Source: Actinomycetaceae bacterium
GTDB taxonomy: Bacteria > Actinomycetota > Actinomycetes > Actinomycetales > Actinomycetaceae
NCBI GenBank assembly: GCA_030532405.1
Contig: JAUNLF010000004.1
Coordinates: forward strand, 1-62,341
Direction: 5' to 3'
DNA: 62,341 nucleotides
Shown here piece after piece: positions 44,214-55,546 of this stretch. Under the pieces are notes generated by a model, which ran no database searches, was not told the origin of the DNA, and worked only from the letters and a program-made list of their open reading frames with translations. The translations under genes were made by a program, and so were the position numbers. The stretch's first letter is position 1; each line of letters begins with the position of its first letter.

Positions 44214-45677
44214 CTAATTTCCGCGTGCTCGCGCCTTAATTCGGCTTATCAATTCGGTTACGTGATTATAAACTTCGCGTTTCATAGTCATCTGTTCAGA
44301 GATCTTCTTATTCGCGTGCATGACCGTAGTGTGGTCACGTCCTCCGAACGCTTGACCGATCTTCGGAAGTGACAAGTCGGTGAGTTCGCGGCACAGGTAC
44401 ATAGCGATTTGGCGGGCGTCCACAATCAGGCGAGACCTGTCCGCGGAGCACATCTGATCGATGGAAACCCCAAAATAGTCCGAAACCTGACCCATGATGA
44501 GCGCGACGGTGATCTCGGTGTCATCCGGGTCAGAAAGCACGTCTTTAAGCACCATTTCAGCCAAAGGCAGGTCAATCTTTTGGTGAGTTAGGTGCGCGTA
44601 CGCGGTCACGCGAATGAGGGAGCCCTCCAGTTCGCGAATGTTTGACGAGATGCGCGAGGCAATGAACTCAAGGACCGCGGAATCCACGTCCAGGTCTTCA
44701 GCGAGGGCTTTTTTACGCAAGATAGCGATACGCGTCTCGAGGTCCGGCGGCTGAATATCCACCAAAAGGCCCATCTCGAAGCGCGACCGCATGCGCGCGC
44801 CGAGACCTTCCAGCTGCTTGGGCGGAACGTCCGAGGTGATAACTACCTGCTTGTTTGCGTTGTACAGGGTGTTGAAGGTGTGGAAAAACTCTTCAACGGT
44901 TTGCTCTTTACCCTGAATGAACTGGATGTCGTCGATAAGGAGGATGTCAACCTGGCGGTATCTGCGCTGGAACTGTTCGGCGCGGTCGTCGCGAATGGAG
45001 TTAATGAAGTCGTTCGTGAACTCCTCCGAGCTCACGTACTTCACCTTTAGGTGTGGATAAAGTGACAGCGCGTAGTTGCCAATCGCGTGCAGCAAGTGAG
45101 TTTTCCCCAGCCCCGAGCCACCGTAGATAAACAGCGGGTTGTAGGCCTTTGCGGGCAGTTCACCGACGGCGGTTGCGGCCGCGTTTGCGAACCTGTTGGA
45201 CGAGCCGGTCACGAAAGTGTCGAACGTGTACTTCGGATTTAGTCGCGTGCCCGAGAAGTCAATCGACGTTGCGGCAGCTGCGTCCGCGGGCGTCCTCCTG
45301 CCGCCGGGCATGCCGGATCCCGCCAAATTTGAGGGATCTTCCTGTCCAGAAACCGCCCCATTTTCCGTGTCTGAGGGCGTGCTGGGATCCTCCGCGGGTA
45401 GTTCTTCGTCGGTGTCGAGCTCGGGGTTGACGGTGATGGCTATGCGGATGTCGCTGCCGATTTCTTCTGAAAGCGCGTCGCAAATGATCTTGTACGCGTT
45501 CTTTTCAATGTAGTTCTTGGAAAACTCGCTGGGGACAGCCACCAAAATGGTTCCCTCAAGATCGCCCAGAGGGCGAGCTGGGAAAACGAATGCCTTAATG
45601 GCGGGGCCGATATCGTCACGCTTCATGAGCTTAGAAATGGCGGATTCCCAAGCTTCACTGAGTTTCTTACCGTCCAC
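44214..45677 (-). CDS. dnaA: Chromosomal replication initiator DnaA
   Basis: 487 aa. Binds oriC and opens it. Walker A is GGSGLGKTH, Walker B LLIDDIQF, the arginine-finger region is GARMRSRF and the C-terminal DNA-binding helix carries FGGRDHTTVMHA. Domain II is an acidic Ser/Pro linker. I chose the GTG at 45677, with AGGAG 5 bases upstream, because the family fold begins just after (KLSEAWESAI); the frame is open to a TTG at 45722. Confidence 0.97.
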   Translation of the reverse strand: MDGKKLSEAWESAISKLMKRDDIGPAIKAFVFPARPLGDLEGTILVAVPSEFSKNYIEKNAYKIICDALSEEIGSDIRIAITVNPELDTDEELPAEDPSTPSDTENGAVSGQEDPSNLAGSGMPGGRRTPADAAAATSIDFSGTRLNPKYTFDTFVTGSSNRFANAAATAVGELPAKAYNPLFIYGGSGLGKTHLLHAIGNYALSLYPHLKVKYVSSEEFTNDFINSIRDDRAEQFQRRYRQVDILLIDDIQFIQGKEQTVEEFFHTFNTLYNANKQVVITSDVPPKQLEGLGARMRSRFEMGLLVDIQPPDLETRIAILRKKALAEDLDVDSAVLEFIASRISSNIRELEGSLIRVTAYAHLTHQKIDLPLAEMVLKDVLSDPDDTEITVALIMGQVSDYFGVSIDQMCSADRSRLIVDARQIAMYLCRELTDLSLPKIGQAFGGRDHTTVMHANKKISEQMTMKREVYNHVTELISRIKARARGN

Positions 45678-45761
45678 AAGAGCTCCTAAATTCGTGAATT
45701 GGGACACGAAGATTTCATGCAACTTGTCCTAGTCTGTCATCTTTACACCGAATTCGGGAAG

Positions 45762-48823: not shown

Positions 48824-49459
48824 ATCACTGAGGAAATCGAAAAGCCCACGGATGCCGTACGCGAACTGTTCGGTGAACAGTTCGAGGAGGTAGAGGTCCT
48901 CGCGCAAATGTTGATTGCCGAGGGCGAGTTGCGCGGGCTTATTGGACCGCGAGAACTGCCGCGACTGTGGTCGCGGCATATCGTGAACTCCGCGGCTGTG
49001 CTTCCTTTTTTGCCTACTGCAGTTCAGGTCATGGATGTGGGTTCGGGCGCTGGATTCCCGGGTTTGGTTATTGCGATAGCCCGCCCGGACCTGGATGTCC
49101 ACTTGGTTGAGCCAATGTCCCGCAGGTGTGAGTGGCTCGCAGATGTGCGCGACGAACTCGACCTCGACAACATTACGATTCACAACGCTCGCGCGGAAGA
49201 ACTTCACGGTTTAGGACAATCCGACATCGTGACTGCGCGCGCTGTTGCCAACCTTAAGAAGTTGACCAAGTTGACTATGCCGCTTGTTTTGCCGGGTGGG
49301 TCAATGCTTGCTTTGAAGGGGCGCAAAGCTAAGGAAGAGGTCGACGCTGCTCGCTCTGTTTTCAAGAAACTCGGGGTTCACCGGGTTGACATTCACGAGG
49401 TTCCTTCAGTCATGGAGGATGAATCCACGCGAGTCGTCCAGCTGCGTAAGAAGCGGTAG
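48824..49459 (+). CDS. rsmG: 16S rRNA m7G methyltransferase RsmG, unusual start
   Basis: About 211 aa. Methylates G527 of 16S rRNA. SAM-binding motif VMDVGSGAGFPGLVIA; also LIGPRELPRLWSRHIVNSA. The first in-frame ATG is at 48908, but the family-conserved residues AVRELFGEQFEEVEVLAQMLIAEG... begin about 28 codons before it, and no in-frame ATG, GTG or TTG lies between the stop at 48797 and 48908. The best start is ATC at 48824, with AGAGTAGG upstream; one base change would make it ATG. If translation starts at 48908 the N-terminal helix is lost. Confidence 0.85.
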   Translation: MTEEIEKPTDAVRELFGEQFEEVEVLAQMLIAEGELRGLIGPRELPRLWSRHIVNSAAVLPFLPTAVQVMDVGSGAGFPGLVIAIARPDLDVHLVEPMSRRCEWLADVRDELDLDNITIHNARAEELHGLGQSDIVTARAVANLKKLTKLTMPLVLPGGSMLALKGRKAKEEVDAARSVFKKLGVHRVDIHEVPSVMEDESTRVVQLRKKR

Positions 49460-49513
49460 TTATCGCCGGGATCGAGGCTGGGATTATACACAGGGTGGCA
49501 GAACCCACTCGCG

Positions 49514-49522
49514 TTATCCACA
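49514..49522 (+). promoter_or_regulatory. Single DnaA box upstream of parA
   Basis: A perfect TTATCCACA lies 70 bp upstream of the parA start in a 132-bp gap. It could link origin firing to the partition genes. Confidence 0.45.
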
Positions 49523-49591
49523 CCTCCGGCAAGCCAGAATGTCTGGTGTCGGTCGTTCCTACTAAACTGGTTGCAGTTGAAAGGAGCCGTA

Positions 49592-50488
49592 GTGTCAACA
49601 GGTTCTACCCCTCTAGCTGATGAGCTTGCGCGAGCTGCACGTGATCGTGCGAGGCTCGAGCAGGTTACTTTTCCAAGGCCCGCGCGTCCCCTAGTTGTAG
49701 CTGTCGCCAACCAAAAAGGTGGCGTTGGGAAAACTACTTCTACGGTTAATCTGTCGGTGGCTTTGGCTAAAGCTGGCCTGTCGGTCATGGTTATCGATGC
49801 GGACCCTCAGGGGAACGCTTCTACAGCTTTGGGGATCGAGCACACGCAAGGGACAGAGTCGACCTACGATGTGCTAACCGGTGAGCTCAGTCTTGAGGAG
49901 TGTCTGCAGCCCTGCGAGGAGGCTGACCACCTCATGGTTTGCCCTGCCACGATCGACCTGTCGGGTGCGGAGCTTGAGTTGTCCTCGCTGACCCAACGTG
50001 AGTTTGTGTTGCGTCGTGCTGTTAAAGACTACTTGGCTGTTCACCGCAATGTTGACGTTATTTTGATTGATTGCCCGCCGAGCTTAGGGCTGTTGACGCT
50101 GAATGCTTTTGTGGCCGCCGATCAGGTCATTGTTCCTATCCAGGCTGAGTACTACGCCCTGGAAGGTCTGTCGATGTTGATTCACACGATCGAGAAGATT
50201 CGTGACTACTTGAATCCCGGCCTGAATATTGGCGCGATTTTGTTGACTATGTTTGATCGCCGTACGAATCTGAGTGCGGAGGTTGCTTCGGAGATTAAGC
50301 GGTACTTCCCTGACATCATGTTGGAGTCGTACATTCCCAGGTCGGTTAAGCTTTCAGAAGCACCGAGTTTTGGCGTGAGTATTTTCTCGCATGACCCGAG
50401 GGGTCAGGCTGCTACTTCTTACAAGGCCGCGGCGTATGAGCTAGCCCAACGGTGGGCGGATTTAGGAGATCAAAATGGCACCGAGTGA
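49592..50488 (+). CDS. parA: Chromosome partitioning ATPase ParA
   Basis: 298 aa. Moves duplicated origins apart with ParB. The deviant Walker A is KGGVGKTTSTVNLS, with DADPQGNAS and DVILIDCPPSLGLLTLN. The start is the GTG at 49592 with AGGAG 5 bases upstream. A ~30-residue N-terminal extension precedes the fold. It overlaps parB by 14 bp. Confidence 0.97.
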   Translation: MSTGSTPLADELARAARDRARLEQVTFPRPARPLVVAVANQKGGVGKTTSTVNLSVALAKAGLSVMVIDADPQGNASTALGIEHTQGTESTYDVLTGELSLEECLQPCEEADHLMVCPATIDLSGAELELSSLTQREFVLRRAVKDYLAVHRNVDVILIDCPPSLGLLTLNAFVAADQVIVPIQAEYYALEGLSMLIHTIEKIRDYLNPGLNIGAILLTMFDRRTNLSAEVASEIKRYFPDIMLESYIPRSVKLSEAPSFGVSIFSHDPRGQAATSYKAAAYELAQRWADLGDQNGTE

Positions 50489-51752
50489 ACGACGTGCTCT
50501 GGGGCGCGGCTTAGGATCACTCATTCCTGATCGCGAACAAAATGTTTCACGTGAAACATCCGAAGTTGAGCGAGGCTCTGCGCGGCCTACCGACGTGTTC
50601 TTTACCGGCGGTGCGGGTACGGACTCTAAAGAGCGTAGGTCGTCTGCGATTGCTGCTGACTTGTTGAAGCCCTCCCCGCGAAGTAAGCGCGGTGCGAGCA
50701 AGAAGACAAGCACGACCGGTTCTAATCGTGCTCAAAGTTCTGCGGGTAGCACTCGGCGACAGAAGGCCAAGGGTACAAGCGACTTTTTTGAAGACATTAT
50801 TGATCCCAAGGCGAATGAGGGCGTGAATGCCTCCGGTTCTGGCGAGGAGGAATCTTCGAAGCTGGTTCCTGTGCCCGGCGCGACGTTCGCTGAGGTTGGT
50901 GTAAATCTTGTTGTTCCCAATCCGAAGCAGCCGCGTGAGATCTTTGATGAGGATGAGCTAGAGGAACTATCGGCGTCTATTCGCGAGATTGGCGTGTTAC
51001 AGCCGATCGTTGTTCGTCCTATTGATGGCTCCGACGAGAAGTATGCGGATATCGTTGCGGACCGCAAGTCGGATGGGATTGATGATCTTCCGGAGTTTGA
51101 GCTCATTATGGGTGAGCGCCGCTTGCGCGCCTCGAAGCTTGCGGGTTTGGAGTTTGTTCCGGCTATTGTTCGCGATACCGACGATGATGATCTTCTTCGC
51201 GACGCACTTTTAGAGAATCTGCACCGTACGCAGCTGAATCCTATTGAAGAAGCTAATGCGTACCAGCAGTTAATGTCTGACTTTGGTTATACCCAGCAGG
51301 AGCTGTCTAGTCGTATAGCAAGGTCTCGCCCGCAGATCGCTAACTCCCTTAGGCTGTTGAAGTTGCCGCCCACGGTGCAGCGCAAGCTTGCTGCCGGTGT
51401 TATTTCGGCTGGGCATGCGCGTGCACTACTCGGCTTGCGGAATGCTGCTCAGATGGAAGCATTGGCTGATCGGATTATTGCCGAGGGTCTGTCTGTGCGC
51501 ACGACCGAAGAGATTGTTGCACTGGGTGACATCACCGAACATGTTGCGTCTAAGAAAGCTGCGAAGCGTGCGCCCGCGGCACCTTCTGAGCGAGCCTCAG
51601 TCGTTATTAATAGGTTGACGGACCTTCTAGATACGCGGGTTACCGTGCACGAAGGTAAACGCAAGGGACGCATTACCATCGAGTATGCCGGTATCGAGGA
51701 CTTAGACAGGATCTCCCAGGTTATTGAGGGTCTGAAAGGTCCCCGCTACTAG
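50475..51752 (+). CDS. parB: Chromosome partitioning protein ParB
   Basis: 425 aa. CTP-dependent clamp that loads at parS. The N-terminal ParA-stimulating segment RRALGRGLGSLIP is followed by a ~130-residue disordered linker, the nuclease-like domain with NPKQPRE and the CTP-box region MGERRLRASKLAG, then the helix-turn-helix with QQELSSRIARSRPQIANSLRLL. Its coding sequence contains a parS site. The long linker is longer than in many ParBs. Confidence 0.97.
   Translation: MAPSERRALGRGLGSLIPDREQNVSRETSEVERGSARPTDVFFTGGAGTDSKERRSSAIAADLLKPSPRSKRGASKKTSTTGSNRAQSSAGSTRRQKAKGTSDFFEDIIDPKANEGVNASGSGEEESSKLVPVPGATFAEVGVNLVVPNPKQPREIFDEDELEELSASIREIGVLQPIVVRPIDGSDEKYADIVADRKSDGIDDLPEFELIMGERRLRASKLAGLEFVPAIVRDTDDDDLLRDALLENLHRTQLNPIEEANAYQQLMSDFGYTQQELSSRIARSRPQIANSLRLLKLPPTVQRKLAAGVISAGHARALLGLRNAAQMEALADRIIAEGLSVRTTEEIVALGDITEHVASKKAAKRAPAAPSERASVVINRLTDLLDTRVTVHEGKRKGRITIEYAGIEDLDRISQVIEGLKGPRY
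50543..50558. promoter_or_regulatory. parS site inside parB
   Basis: Perfect TGTTTCACGTGAAACA, covering codons ~23-28 of parB. It is read as part of the disordered linker, so the protein tolerates the residues it imposes. Confidence 0.95.
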
Positions 51753-51760
51753 GTGCTAAT

Positions 51761-53035
51761 TGTTTCACGTGAAACAATTTCGGCCAGGCTCTCTAACATG
51801 AGAAACGTAGTTGGGCTTCTATGAGCAACTGACTGGGTACGCGTTTGACCCGTGTTCCATCCGGGTCTTCCAATAGTGGGCACTAATGTTTCACGTGAAA
51901 CAATTTTTATGACGACCCGGCTACGCGCTGAGGCAAAGCATGGCGAAAATCGTCGCTGTCGTCCTTGTGTGCTCATGTCGGCGAGTGCAGAGGAAGGCAT
52001 TGTGGCCGATCGTGAATCCATCCTGGACTGATGACGGCGCATATTTAATTCTGGAGTGATCTTCTAGGCACCTATCGGAAATTGTTTCACGTGAAACAAT
52101 TCTTGATGTGCTCGCACAATTCGGAATGTACTTTCTTACCAGGACGAGGTCTAAGCGGGACAGAACCTAGTATGACGAGCTAGATCTGGCTGGTTTGATC
52201 CAGGACGTACCGGTCCCCGGAGAGGAACGTTCTCGGTCAAGACCGATTCCAGCCTGGAAGTACGGTATCCAAACCATTCAGAGCTACGGCGAAGGCTTCT
52301 GAGCTAACCTCCCAAATTGTTTCACGTGAAACAATTATGTTCTCTGTAGCGCGATTTGTGGACGTAGTCTTCCTGCCAGGAAGCGGTGCACGCGTAACGG
52401 AACCAAATCTTAGGCGCTACGTTCGGATGGTTTGCCCCGGAATATACCAGTGCCCGGAGAGGAACGTTCTCTGTCAAAAGTTATTCGAGTTTGGACCCGC
52501 GGCATCCACCTAGATTGGACCTACGGCGAAGGCTTCTGCACTCGTATCTTCAATTGTTTCACGTGAAACAATTCTTCGGACACGCGCAGGACTCATGTTG
52601 GCTGTGGTAGAGGCACCTACTTACACATTCACGCGGTAGAGATGCCGGTGCGCCGAGGAACGCTCCCATGGCACCTCGTGTTGGGCAACAGCGTTTTATG
52701 TGGAGAAGAGAGTTTCAAGATCGAACGTCTAACCCAAACTTCGATGGACTATGTGAACCACCGCGATTGAAGCTCGGCAATTGTTTCACGTGAAACAATT
52801 TTGCTCTATATACCGCGACTTGTGGGCGTAGTCCTACTGCCAGGAACCATGTGCACACGAAATAGAATGCAATCTTAGGCGCTACATTCGGTTGGTTCGC
52901 TCCAGGATGTACCAGTACCTGGAGAGGAATGTTCTCGGACAAAAGTGATCACGGTGTGGAAGTGCGATACCCAACCAATTGAGATCTAATGTGAAGGATT
53001 ACGCGCTTGTGTCATTAATTGTTTCACGTGAAACA
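51761..53035. repeat. parS: Array of seven parS sites with long repeated units
   Basis: Perfect 16-bp palindromes (TGTTTCACGTGAAACA) start at 51761, 51887, 52083, 52318, 52555, 52782 and 53020; all but one are flanked by AATT on at least one side. The intervals are 126, 196, 235, 237, 227 and 238 bp. Units starting at 52083, 52318 and 52782 are diverged copies of one another, sharing GGAGAGGAA(c/t)GTTCTC at offset 136-139 and other blocks. No gene fits inside. This is the centromere-like ParB loading region. Confidence 0.95.
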
Positions 53036-53096
53036 ATTTGGGTATTGCGTAAGTGTGCGCGACCAGAAAAGACGAGTGCACAAGCTTCAGGTAACA

Positions 53097-53212
53097 GAAA
53101 CTCCCCACTAGCTGGACTGATTAACTGAACTGCTCCCCACTAGTAGATAACTGATTTCTCAGTCCAACTAGTGGGGGGAATTCAAATCGGTGGCCGACTA
53201 ATGGGGAGTTTC
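53097..53212. repeat. Nested inverted repeats with four CCCCACTAG-type motifs
   Basis: GAAACTCCCCACTAG at 53097-53111 is mirrored by CTAATGGGGAGTTTC at 53198-53212. Inside, CCCCACTAGCTGGACTGA (53103-53120) pairs with TCAGTCCAACTAGTGGGG (53159-53176) with one mismatch. A further CTCCCCACTAG lies at 53133-53143. It lies between the parS array and the 3' end of ddl, and could fold as a cruciform or end the ddl transcript. Confidence 0.75.
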
Positions 53213-53259
53213 GAAGGATGATTCTCACTAACAGTGGGATTGTGCAGAGTTACACGCGG

Positions 53260-54213
53260 TTACTCCTGGGAAGCAAACTGCGCGATGTTTTCCAAAATCT
53301 CGCGGAAAGAGCTGTGTTCTTCCGCAGCAAGTGGGAACAGCGAAGTATCTGTCATTCCGGGGCTCACGTTGGCGTCGATGAACCAGGCTGTACCCTCATC
53401 GTCGACGATCAGGTCGATCCTGGACAGGTGACGCATACCGAGCGTGTCGTGCATCTTCAGCGCGGCTTCCTTAACGTTCGCCAGAGCCTCATCGGATAGG
53501 CGCGCAGGAACGAAGAACTCGGAGCGACCTGTGTTGTAGCGGGCATCGTAATCGTAACGACCGTCGTCAGTCACAATTTCAACGGGTGGGAGGGCGACCG
53601 GGCCGTCCTCCAGGTCAAGAACAGACACGGCAACCTCGTGGCCGGGGATGAACTCCTCGACCATCACAGTGTCACCGTAAGCAAACGCATCAACCATTGC
53701 GGAACGAAGCTCGTCCTCGGTACCGACCTTTGATAGGCCAAGCGCTGAACCGCCATCGGAAGGCTTTACGATGAGCGGGAAGTAGAAGTCAGCCTCATTG
53801 GAAATAATCGACTGGATGATTGCGGGCGCACCAACCTGGCGGAAAAGCTCCTGCCGCAGCGACAACCACCTCGGAGTAGCCACACCCGCCAGCTTTGCCA
53901 GAGACTTCGCAGTTGGCTTGTTAGACGCCAGCGCACACGAAGATGCGGGTGAACCCACATACGGGTAGGAAATCAGCGAAAGCAGGTCCTGCACGGAACC
54001 ATCCTCACCGACCGAACCGTGGATCAGCGGCCACACCACGTCGGGTTCAAACTCGGCGACAGTAGGCATGAACTGGGCGTTCAAATCGCACACCTCGACG
54101 GTATGACCACCGTGACGAAGAATATTCGCAACGCGACGACCCGACCGAAGCGAAACATCACGCTCGTGGGTGAGTCCACCGGCAACAATCAGGATTTTTA
54201 GCGAGTCAGACAT
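53260..54213 (-). CDS. ddl: D-alanine--D-alanine ligase
   Basis: 317 aa. Makes the D-Ala-D-Ala dipeptide of peptidoglycan. ATP-grasp enzyme with VWPLIHGSVGEDG, YVGSPASSCALASNKPTAK, VKPSDGGSALGLSKV and the late RIDLIVDDEGTAWFIDANVSPGMT. The ATG has AGGAGA upstream. It is the last gene of a minus-strand run that lies head-on to replication, 10 bp after the aminotransferase. Confidence 0.95.
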   Translation of the reverse strand: MSDSLKILIVAGGLTHERDVSLRSGRRVANILRHGGHTVEVCDLNAQFMPTVAEFEPDVVWPLIHGSVGEDGSVQDLLSLISYPYVGSPASSCALASNKPTAKSLAKLAGVATPRWLSLRQELFRQVGAPAIIQSIISNEADFYFPLIVKPSDGGSALGLSKVGTEDELRSAMVDAFAYGDTVMVEEFIPGHEVAVSVLDLEDGPVALPPVEIVTDDGRYDYDARYNTGRSEFFVPARLSDEALANVKEAALKMHDTLGMRHLSRIDLIVDDEGTAWFIDANVSPGMTDTSLFPLAAEEHSSFREILENIAQFASQE

Positions 54214-54223
54214 GGCAATCTCC

Positions 54224-55546
54224 TTAGACCTGGTCCGGGGCAGGAGCTATAACAGCGCCATCTGGCAGCTCCGCCCTCACGTTGGTGCCGAACATTTCAA
54301 CAAGCTCTTGCTCCGCGTGAATAACGCGAGCCAAGCGGCGCACGCCCTCGCGAATCTCTTCTGGCGGCGGATAGCAGAACGACAGGCGAATATGGTCGCC
54401 GCCGCGCCCATCCGCATAGAACGCGGTACCGGAAACGTAGGCGACAAGCCCGGTCACAGCGCGCGGAAGCATCGCCTTCGCATCCAAACCTTCCGGCAGT
54501 GTCAGCCACGTGTAGAAGCCACCATCGGGCTTCGTCCATTCCAATCCGGGTAGTTTTTCTTGGAGGGCGGACTGCATAGCCTCAGAACGCTCGCGATACA
54601 TCTCGCGGTAAATCTTGACCTGGGAATACCAATCGTAGTTAGACAGGTAATCCTCAATCGCCATTTGACCGACCATGGAGGGCGACAAGATCGCGGACTC
54701 CGAAGCCAGCACCAGCTTGTCGCGGATGGCGTGCGGTGCTAACGCCCAGCCAATACGGAAGCCGGGAGCGAACATCTTCGAGAACGACCCGAGGTACACA
54801 ACGCCCTCGGGGTTATAAGACTGCAGTGCCGCAATCGGATCGGAATGGAAGCCAAGCAGACCGTAAGGGTTGTCCTCGACGATCAGGACGTGCTCGCGTT
54901 TACAGATCTCAACAATCCGAGGGCGACGCTCCTCAGACAGTGTCACGCCCGCGGGGTTGTGGAAGTTAGGGATCGTGTACAGGAACTTAATCGTGCGTCC
55001 CTGAGCGCGCACATCCTTAATAGCTTCCTCGAGTGCTTCCGGAATCAGCCCGTCCTCATCCATTTCAACGTGGACGACTTCGCCTTCATAGGCGCGAAAT
55101 GTTCCCAAAGCACCGACATATGAGGGCGCTTCAGCTAAAACGACGTCGCCCTTTTCAAGGAACAACTCCGATACCAGGTCGAGGGCTTGCTGCGAACCCG
55201 TCGTAACTACGACGTCATCGGGATCAGCATTAATACCGTCGTAAGTCATAACTTCGGTGATGCGCTGACGCAACGGTTCCCAGCCCTGGCCAGAACCGTA
55301 CTGCATCGCCTGCGCACCGTGCCGGCTGATAAGCGCGCGAGCGGATTCAGCCAGCTTATCCAGCGGCAAATCCTTAATATTTGGCATACCGCCAGCCAAG
55401 GACACGACCTCGGGGCGAGAAACTACAGCAAACAGGGCGCGGATTTCAGATGAGCGTAAGCCGTGGGCTCGGGCGGCGTATGCACCATGCCAAGGATCTA
55501 GTCGATTTCCTGCATCGGATTTTCGCATACCGCCTGGTTCAGACAC
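54224..55546 (-). CDS. PLP-dependent aminotransferase (class I/II, AAD/MocR-like fold)
   Basis: 440 aa from the GTG at 55546. The PLP-lysine lies in YLGSFSKMFAPGFRIGW, with TGSQQALDLV, NFHNPAGVTLS and EDNPYG typical of the 2-aminoadipate/aromatic aminotransferase group. There is no N-terminal GntR domain, so it is not a full MocR regulator. The frame is open to 55744, but that stretch spans a terminator. The ATG at 55528 is another possible start. Substrate not known. Confidence 0.87.
   Translation of the reverse strand: MSEPGGMRKSDAGNRLDPWHGAYAARAHGLRSSEIRALFAVVSRPEVVSLAGGMPNIKDLPLDKLAESARALISRHGAQAMQYGSGQGWEPLRQRITEVMTYDGINADPDDVVVTTGSQQALDLVSELFLEKGDVVLAEAPSYVGALGTFRAYEGEVVHVEMDEDGLIPEALEEAIKDVRAQGRTIKFLYTIPNFHNPAGVTLSEERRPRIVEICKREHVLIVEDNPYGLLGFHSDPIAALQSYNPEGVVYLGSFSKMFAPGFRIGWALAPHAIRDKLVLASESAILSPSMVGQMAIEDYLSNYDWYSQVKIYREMYRERSEAMQSALQEKLPGLEWTKPDGGFYTWLTLPEGLDAKAMLPRAVTGLVAYVSGTAFYADGRGGDHIRLSFCYPPPEEIREGVRRLARVIHAEQELVEMFGTNVRAELPDGAVIAPAPDQV

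Follow-up and report, generated by a model that had tools for sequence, protein, structure and literature searches.

The window, by which we mean the whole 62,341-nucleotide stretch of Actinomycetaceae bacterium DNA analyzed here, carries an overlapping parA-parB pair that faces a convergent ddl gene, with a dense group of parS sites between parB and ddl (Table 1). The NCBIfam matches of dnaA, yidC, rsmG, parB, ddl, and trxB all exceed the curated cut-offs; for jag and parA the best matches are the expected ones, yet they fall under their cut-offs. The encoded ParB matches the solved Spo0J chain 6sdk (phmmer E = 1.5e-45) as well as other solved ParB chains, and it aligns with the solved Spo0J/ParB chains through the GERR motif, which we take to be CTP-binding, and through the helix-turn-helix region. 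The dnaA gene lies in the same window as the array (44214-45722), and the genes dnaA, yidC, rsmG, parA, and parB follow one another in chromosomal order, this block being the usual one at chromosomal origins. A ParB of the ParB/Spo0J family, as judged from TIGR00180 and the solved homologues, together with canonical 16-bp parS sites near the origin, identifies the system as a chromosomal ParABS (Spo0J/Soj).

Table 1. Coordinates of the par genes, parS sites, and spacers in the window.
Feature	Positions	Strand	Remarks
parA (ParA-family ATPase)	49571..50488	+	NCBIfam matches of ParA/MinD type, led by ParA_partition at 115.7 bits (curated cut-off of 180 not reached)
parB (425 aa)	50475..51752	+	14-base overlap with the end of parA; TIGR00180 parB_part, 179.4 bits (cut-off 58.45)
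parS in the 5' end of parB	50543..50558	+	68 nt past the start codon
parS 1	51761..51776	+	just past the parB stop codon; 22-bp palindrome
parS 2	51887..51902	+	palindrome limited to 16 bp
parS 3	52083..52098	+	22-bp palindrome
spacer A1	52099..52317	+	interval 235 bp; identity 63.5% to A2, 60.3% to A3
parS 4	52318..52333	+	22-bp palindrome
spacer A2	52334..52554	+	interval 237 bp; identity 72.9% to A3
parS 5	52555..52570	+	22-bp palindrome
spacer B	52571..52781	+	interval 227 bp; homology to A1-A3 not detected
parS 6	52782..52797	+	22-bp palindrome
spacer A3	52798..53019	+	interval 238 bp; identity 72.9% to A2
parS 7	53020..53035	+	22-bp palindrome
nested palindromic repeat	53097..53212	.	between the array and ddl; RNA fold z-scores of -7.4 and -9.4, one per strand
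ddl (D-alanine--D-alanine ligase)	53260..54213	-	convergent with parB; NF002378, 258.8 bits (cut-off 243)

The parS core, TGTTTCACGTGAAACA, occurs in eight perfect copies in the window, and nothing else there matches it with up to two mismatches; shuffled versions of the window yielded a mean of 0.21 matches at that threshold, with a maximum of 2. Seven of the copies (51761-53035) lie past parB, which ends at 51752, and short of the 3' end of ddl (53260), at intervals of 126, 196, 235, 237, 227, and 238 bp, of which the last four form a consecutive near-equal run. At six of these seven sites the palindrome is 22 bp long (AATTGTTTCACGTGAAACAATT) rather than 16. The block looks non-coding, since the longest ORF overlapping it reaches only 97 aa and the short ORFs present are spread across the two strands. 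The initial annotation had described eight perfect 16-bp palindromes (seven in the block and one in parB), four consecutive intervals of 227-238 bp, and a non-coding block, and all of this was borne out. Elsewhere in the 2.23-Mb genome we found one more exact parS (C12:163318) and one site with a single mismatch (C12:85570), both within ORFs. All ten genomic sites with 0-1 mismatch, nine of them exact, are thus situated on contig C12 within 113 kb, and eight of them fall within 2.5 kb. The exact site at C12:163318 (L103, position ~1019) is the sole one outside the par locus, and its ORF resembles hemE by eye. Of the 11 genus members, 10 carry a parS inside parB at this +68 position, two of them with one mismatch, indicating that the site has been kept inside coding sequence.

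Homologous parS-plus-spacer units account for three of the six array spacers, and no such homology was detected for the other three. The spacers that start at 52083, 52318, and 52782 share 60-73% identity across ~220 bp with perfect palindromes at each, in agreement with the mutual alignment first reported for these intervals. Spacer B gave no local alignment with A1-A3 on either strand, global forward z-scores of 0.9, 0.9, and 2.6 (the last against the last unit), and no detectable homology to a profile built from the three copies. An inverted copy was also considered for spacer B and is ruled out by the absence of reverse-strand similarity. The even stretch thus combines a unit present in three copies with a single spacer of near-equal length that is either unrelated or has decayed completely; the earlier description of an array of ~235-bp repeated units holds for A1-A3 and fails for the 227-bp spacer B. 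Across A1-A3, the three copies agree at 114 of 223 columns, and survival of 16 out of 16 parS columns at this rate has a probability of ~2e-5 per site. That every parS core is nevertheless perfect points to selection on the cores. Spacer GC content is 0.47-0.53, compared with 0.574 for the window. A coding origin of the units is unsupported, as codon-phase values of 0.49/0.54/0.50 show no bias and there is no long ORF. A conserved motif within the spacers was not significant (17 of 20 columns identical in the best 20-column window, p = 0.077), and a structured-RNA search of 49400-54300 returned no known family up to E = 1.

A 46-bp part of the nested palindromic repeat beside ddl recurs at C12:231696-231741 and also on other contigs of genus members G003 and G005, at 85-94% identity. 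The element is REP- or MITE-like, and as far as can be told it lies outside the centromere.

We screened 151 Actinomycetaceae genomes for parS, 132 of which contain an exact site, and compared 111 of the family: 11 from the genus of the window (10 of the 151, own genome included, plus G005), 40 with at least three exact sites that were thinned by hand against redundancy, and 60 drawn from the 63 remaining genomes with at least two exact sites (G073, G094, and G107 being left out). The other 38 of the 151 have 0 or 1 exact site. Genomes were chosen by their number of sites, though exact-site positions were already known for six of the 40 (G011, G013, G027, G055, G121, and G142) and for 12 of the 60 (G045, G046, G067, G086, G092, G101, G106, G127, G133, G144, G148, and G150), and the compared stretch of G034 and G048 contains no parS. 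At least three sites with up to one mismatch fall within 1.3 kb in 68 of the 111 genomes, and at least three exact sites do so in 40 of the 111, counts that carry the selection of 100 of the 110 relatives for at least two exact sites. The own genome has the most exact sites of all (seven) and ranks joint fourth when one mismatch is allowed; with up to two mismatches, as many as 11 sites lie within 1.3 kb beside parAB in the family. In genus g4, we also noted four genomes (L156 from G121, L200 from G133, L211 from G101, and L195 from G150) with 12-16 parS-like sites in the stretch (up to two mismatches), 10-13 of them inside a parB-ddl gap of 2.9-4.7 kb. Catenulispora and a Catenulisporales MAG (L023, L028, L039, L040, and L042) have 12-20 parS-like sites around parAB at the same threshold, with many steps of ~21-24 or 41-46 bp, corresponding to about two and four turns of the helix.

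An exact parS is present in all 11 genus genomes. Nine of the ten other members have 2-4 sites with up to one mismatch in the parB-ddl gap (2, 4, 4, 2, 3, 2, 3, 0, 3, and 3 in G001-G010); G008 has none there and instead carries a five-site array upstream of parA. The distances differ among species, being 299/292/394 bp in G002, 313/287 in G010, 173/165 in G005, 112/113/109/343 in G008, 432/196 in G003, and 555/325 in G009. The own-genome spacers have no match in the ten other members, and the intergenic spacers compared show clear orthology only between G002 and G010. When the array DNA was compared with the 11 genus genomes outside the locus, the matches listed covered the palindromic element and parS cores together with short adjoining stretches, and no spacer. 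Homologous spacers within an array were not detected in the six other genus members with an array of at least three sites; they occur in G028 and G121, and weakly in G082 (one pair, z 6.4). The spacing, position, and spacer sequence of the arrays are lineage-specific. The initial annotation had regarded relatives without repeated units as contrary evidence, and these six arrays are of that kind, although this tells only partly against its proposal.

Exact spacing is not conserved in the genus; evenness of spacing exceeds random expectation in two genome sets and is weakened by hard-core nulls. We measured evenness as r = |d1-d2|/(d1+d2) for neighbouring intervals, with random placement as the null; both were fixed on the first 51 genomes and reused on the second 60, while a 60-bp hard core and mismatch levels 0-2 were added at the second-set stage. 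In the first 51 genomes (26 arrays, 68 pairs, own genome and homologous spacers included), mean r was 0.251 compared with 0.411 expected, and 17 pairs had r<0.05 compared with 4.3 expected. The genus without the own genome (6 arrays, 9 pairs) gave a mean r of 0.156 versus 0.444 (p = 0.0003). In the second set at up to one mismatch (22 arrays with 48 pairs, among which no neighbouring spacers were homologous), mean r was 0.258 versus 0.409, with 0 of 2000 simulations as low, and r<0.05 in 10 pairs versus 3.2 expected (p = 0.0005); at up to two mismatches (29 arrays, 91 pairs), the corresponding values were 0.263 versus 0.417 and 15 pairs versus 5.7 (p = 0.0005). Exact sites only left a single array in this set, which is uninformative for evenness. 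With a hard core, second-set p values at up to one mismatch were 0.002/0.007 at 40 bp and 0.03/0.03 at 60 bp, and at up to two mismatches <0.0005/0.0035 at 40 bp and 0.0005/0.03 at 60 bp. A hard core of 0.9x the smallest interval of each array gave a mean r of 0.255 versus 0.248 (p = 0.64), and with homologous-spacer arrays removed the arrays were less regular than the null (0.275 versus 0.210, p = 0.995). Very-equal pairs retained a mild excess under this null (16 versus 9.5, p = 0.017; without homologous-spacer arrays, 11 versus 6.9, p = 0.058), which is harsh because its minimum comes from the same data. G010, being orthologous to G002, was left out of the 0.9x-hard-core test and of the last second-set test, and G000 was left out where stated.

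Runs of near-equal intervals without detected homology occur in G008 (112/113/109), G131 (96/96/97, where two spacer pairs reach global z of 2.3 and 3.0), and G090 (127/125). Orthologous spacers, on the other hand, differ in length between G002 and G010 (299 versus 313 and 292 versus 287) and between G027 and G075 (473 versus 291 and 210 versus 197). Helical phasing of the intervals was not significant (best R 0.205, p ~0.03 among 26 periods tried). In genus g10 (e.g., L140 and L178), two parS sites in the parA-parB gap are separated by exactly 123 bp in 8 of 15 genomes and by 118 bp in one, the pair being missing in six; the sequence between them drifts to 66% identity, and no forward frame is open across it in six of seven genomes checked, with an open frame in the 118-bp one. 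A shared promoter could also explain this constant 123-bp distance.

In the parAB regions of the 111 genomes, perfect symmetry often continues beyond the parS core, giving longer palindromes with arms, of up to 19 bp, that are particular to each site (for example, G037 in L149, G098 in L166, and G027 in L168). Arms of at least 6 bp occur at 31 of 296 deduplicated non-coding sites (up to one mismatch), whereas pairing the left flank of one site with the right flank of another gives an expectation of ~0.3. Relative to the assigned stop codons of rsmG, jag, parA, parB, ddl, a mocR-like gene, and trxB, long-armed sites account for 21 of the 82 sites located no more than 100 bp past a stop and for 11 of 216 elsewhere (p = 2e-6), and all 21 follow rsmG, parB, or ddl. 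In a test conceived after the arms had been seen, the 10 nt past the stem on the transcribed strand contain a mean of 4.5 T at these 21 sites compared with 2.8 at short-armed sites in the same places (p = 0.0002). Many parS cores of the relatives are thus embedded in hairpins that resemble terminators and closely follow the ends of genes. The long-armed sites away from known gene ends (11 of 32) have a mean of 1.6 T and no T tail, and a terminator reading does not explain them. In the window itself arm length ranges from 0 to 3 bp, parS 2 lacks an arm, its tail being T-rich (6 of 10), and none of the terminator-like calls overlaps a parS.

CTP-bound ParB clamps load at parS and slide outward, and more sites raise loading. 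We consider it likely that the array is the main chromosomal centromere of this Actinomycetaceae bacterium, unusually compact though ordinary in other respects, and a dense ParB-loading hub that grew by local duplication and whose sites are kept by selection. Given what is known of ParB biology, ParB dimers would close into CTP-bound clamps at each 16-22-bp parS and then slide onto the intervening and flanking DNA; the resulting high density of clamps would bridge DNA, interact with ParA, and bring about SMC loading at what is practically a single place, so that the 1.28-kb array may come close to a single SMC loading point. Array growth in this lineage probably proceeded by local tandem duplication of a parS-plus-spacer unit, after which the spacers would have diverged while selection kept the parS cores perfect; the near-equal spacing would then be at least partly a relic of duplication, which we regard as the probable main cause of the evenness. 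The identical 22-bp repeats ~235 bp apart are putative substrates for unequal exchange, which would fit the lineage-specific units. Against duplication, spacer B is near-equal in length without homology, and most near-even arrays in relatives lack spacer homology; duplication explains these non-homologous near-even spacers only if their similarity has decayed, and a duplication too old for detection would also yield near-equal pairs.

Several other readings bear on the same observations. Selection on the spacing itself, such that a lineage-specific minimum or optimum distance lets each parS load a clamp unblocked or lets bridged loops fold regularly, is possible, if not the reading we favour: adjacent intervals resemble each other more closely than expected under random placement in the genus and in the second set, spacer B nearly equals the A units in length and does not match them in sequence, and near-equal runs lack detected homology in three relatives, but the 0.9x-smallest-interval hard core fully accounts for the mean evenness, orthologous spacers change length, and a clear helical phase is absent. 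The initial suggestion that even spacing could be functional gains from the above-chance evenness in relatives and from the 227-bp non-homologous spacer, and loses from the variation among species (109-113, 165-173, and 287-313 bp) and from the fact that only three of six spacers are one unit. In the accessible text of the respective reports, a single parS is sufficient in C. glutamicum cells (PMC7083940), in P. aeruginosa (PMC4368675), and on long DNA in vitro (PMC10681803), indicating that seven sites are not needed in principle. If one or two sites were used and the remainder were tolerated duplicates, the array would consist mostly of neutral relics, as the sufficiency of one site in the two bacteria would allow; we find this unlikely, since all seven cores are perfect while the copied spacers have diverged by 27-40%.

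An array acting mainly as a transcription block between convergent parB and ddl, where bound ParB or hairpins formed by parS would halt RNA polymerase, appears a shade more doubtful still. The long-armed parS hairpins found family-wide with T-rich tails up to 100 bp after rsmG, parB, or ddl fit such a role, as does the T-rich stretch after parS 2, but in the window the arm extensions measure 0-3 bp, parS 1 has one T in its 10-nt tail, the single terminator-like call overlaps no parS, and seven sites exceed what a terminator needs. We put forward only tentatively, as more speculative than selected spacing by itself, a design rule in which Actinomycetaceae parS sites are held at a lineage-specific near-even distance by selection on ParB clamp loading and gene-end parS sites double as intrinsic terminator hairpins with parS in the stem, one palindrome serving both to load ParB and to exclude RNA polymerase from the centromere. 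Arrays of iterated sites built on homologous units are reminiscent of plasmid centromeres, and from this likeness the initial annotation had judged the array to be more like one. Such a plasmid-type or horizontally acquired centromere is highly improbable, and gene context argues it away: contig C12, on which both dnaA and the gene block of the origin are found, is not a plasmid or other secondary replicon, with parA-parB inside the chromosomally ordered dnaA-yidC-rsmG block, the parA-parB-ddl neighbourhood is conserved across the genus, the 16-mer is the canonical chromosomal parS, and dense chromosomal clusters occur both in Actinomycetaceae and in M. xanthus.

With seven sites in 1.28 kb beside parAB, the locus belongs among the dense chromosomal parS clusters, in which many sites lie within a few kb. 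The nearest precedent we found, in the portion of the report available, is M. xanthus, where 22 putative parS (consensus TGTTCCACGTGGAACG) lie in ~3 kb, ~4 kb upstream of parA, and where ParB binds cluster DNA in vitro (PMC3899335). Both are chromosomal parABS systems with a dense cluster near parAB; compared with what that report describes, the array here is new in lying directly downstream of parB, in having seven sites that are all perfect, and in its partly homologous 235-bp units. C. glutamicum likewise has actinobacterial chromosomal parS, but its ten sites (parS1-10, 9 of 10 intergenic, with ParB-dependent SMC loading) are described as spread over 35 kb (PMC7083940), in contrast to one 1.28-kb array here. 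Artificial 1x-39x parS DNAs similarly place many sites on short DNA, but they are engineered as groups of closely spaced sites; as far as the accessible text goes, condensation force rises with site number, and in a magnetic-tweezers assay 7, 13, and 26 parS condensed short DNA while 1, 2, and 4 did not, a failure that the authors blame on an assay limit (PMC8299390). Most bacteria are described as having parS within 5-40 kb, with the speculation that tight clustering eases SMC collisions (PMC8357415, accessible part). Other Actinomycetaceae share the dense cluster beside parAB, and the own genome differs in having the most exact sites. A search of titles and abstracts, with subscription papers largely outside its scope, returned no description of regular parS spacing, of such arrays for ParB/parS in Actinomyces, or of parS inside terminators; "regularly spaced" in the text seen of PMC4368675 refers to ParB foci rather than to parS.

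Most bacteria have few or spread-out parS sites, which makes it difficult to examine how parS number and spacing affect ParB clamp loading, condensation, and SMC loading, and artificial arrays have been used for this purpose. The natural arrays of the Actinomycetaceae reach the 11 sites in 1.3 kb noted above (up to two mismatches), with intervals from ~25 to 600 bp at one parAB locus, a range that makes parS spacing and number testable with natural variants. The terminator-embedded parS sites of the relatives, if confirmed as such, would link the placement of the centromere to transcription termination.
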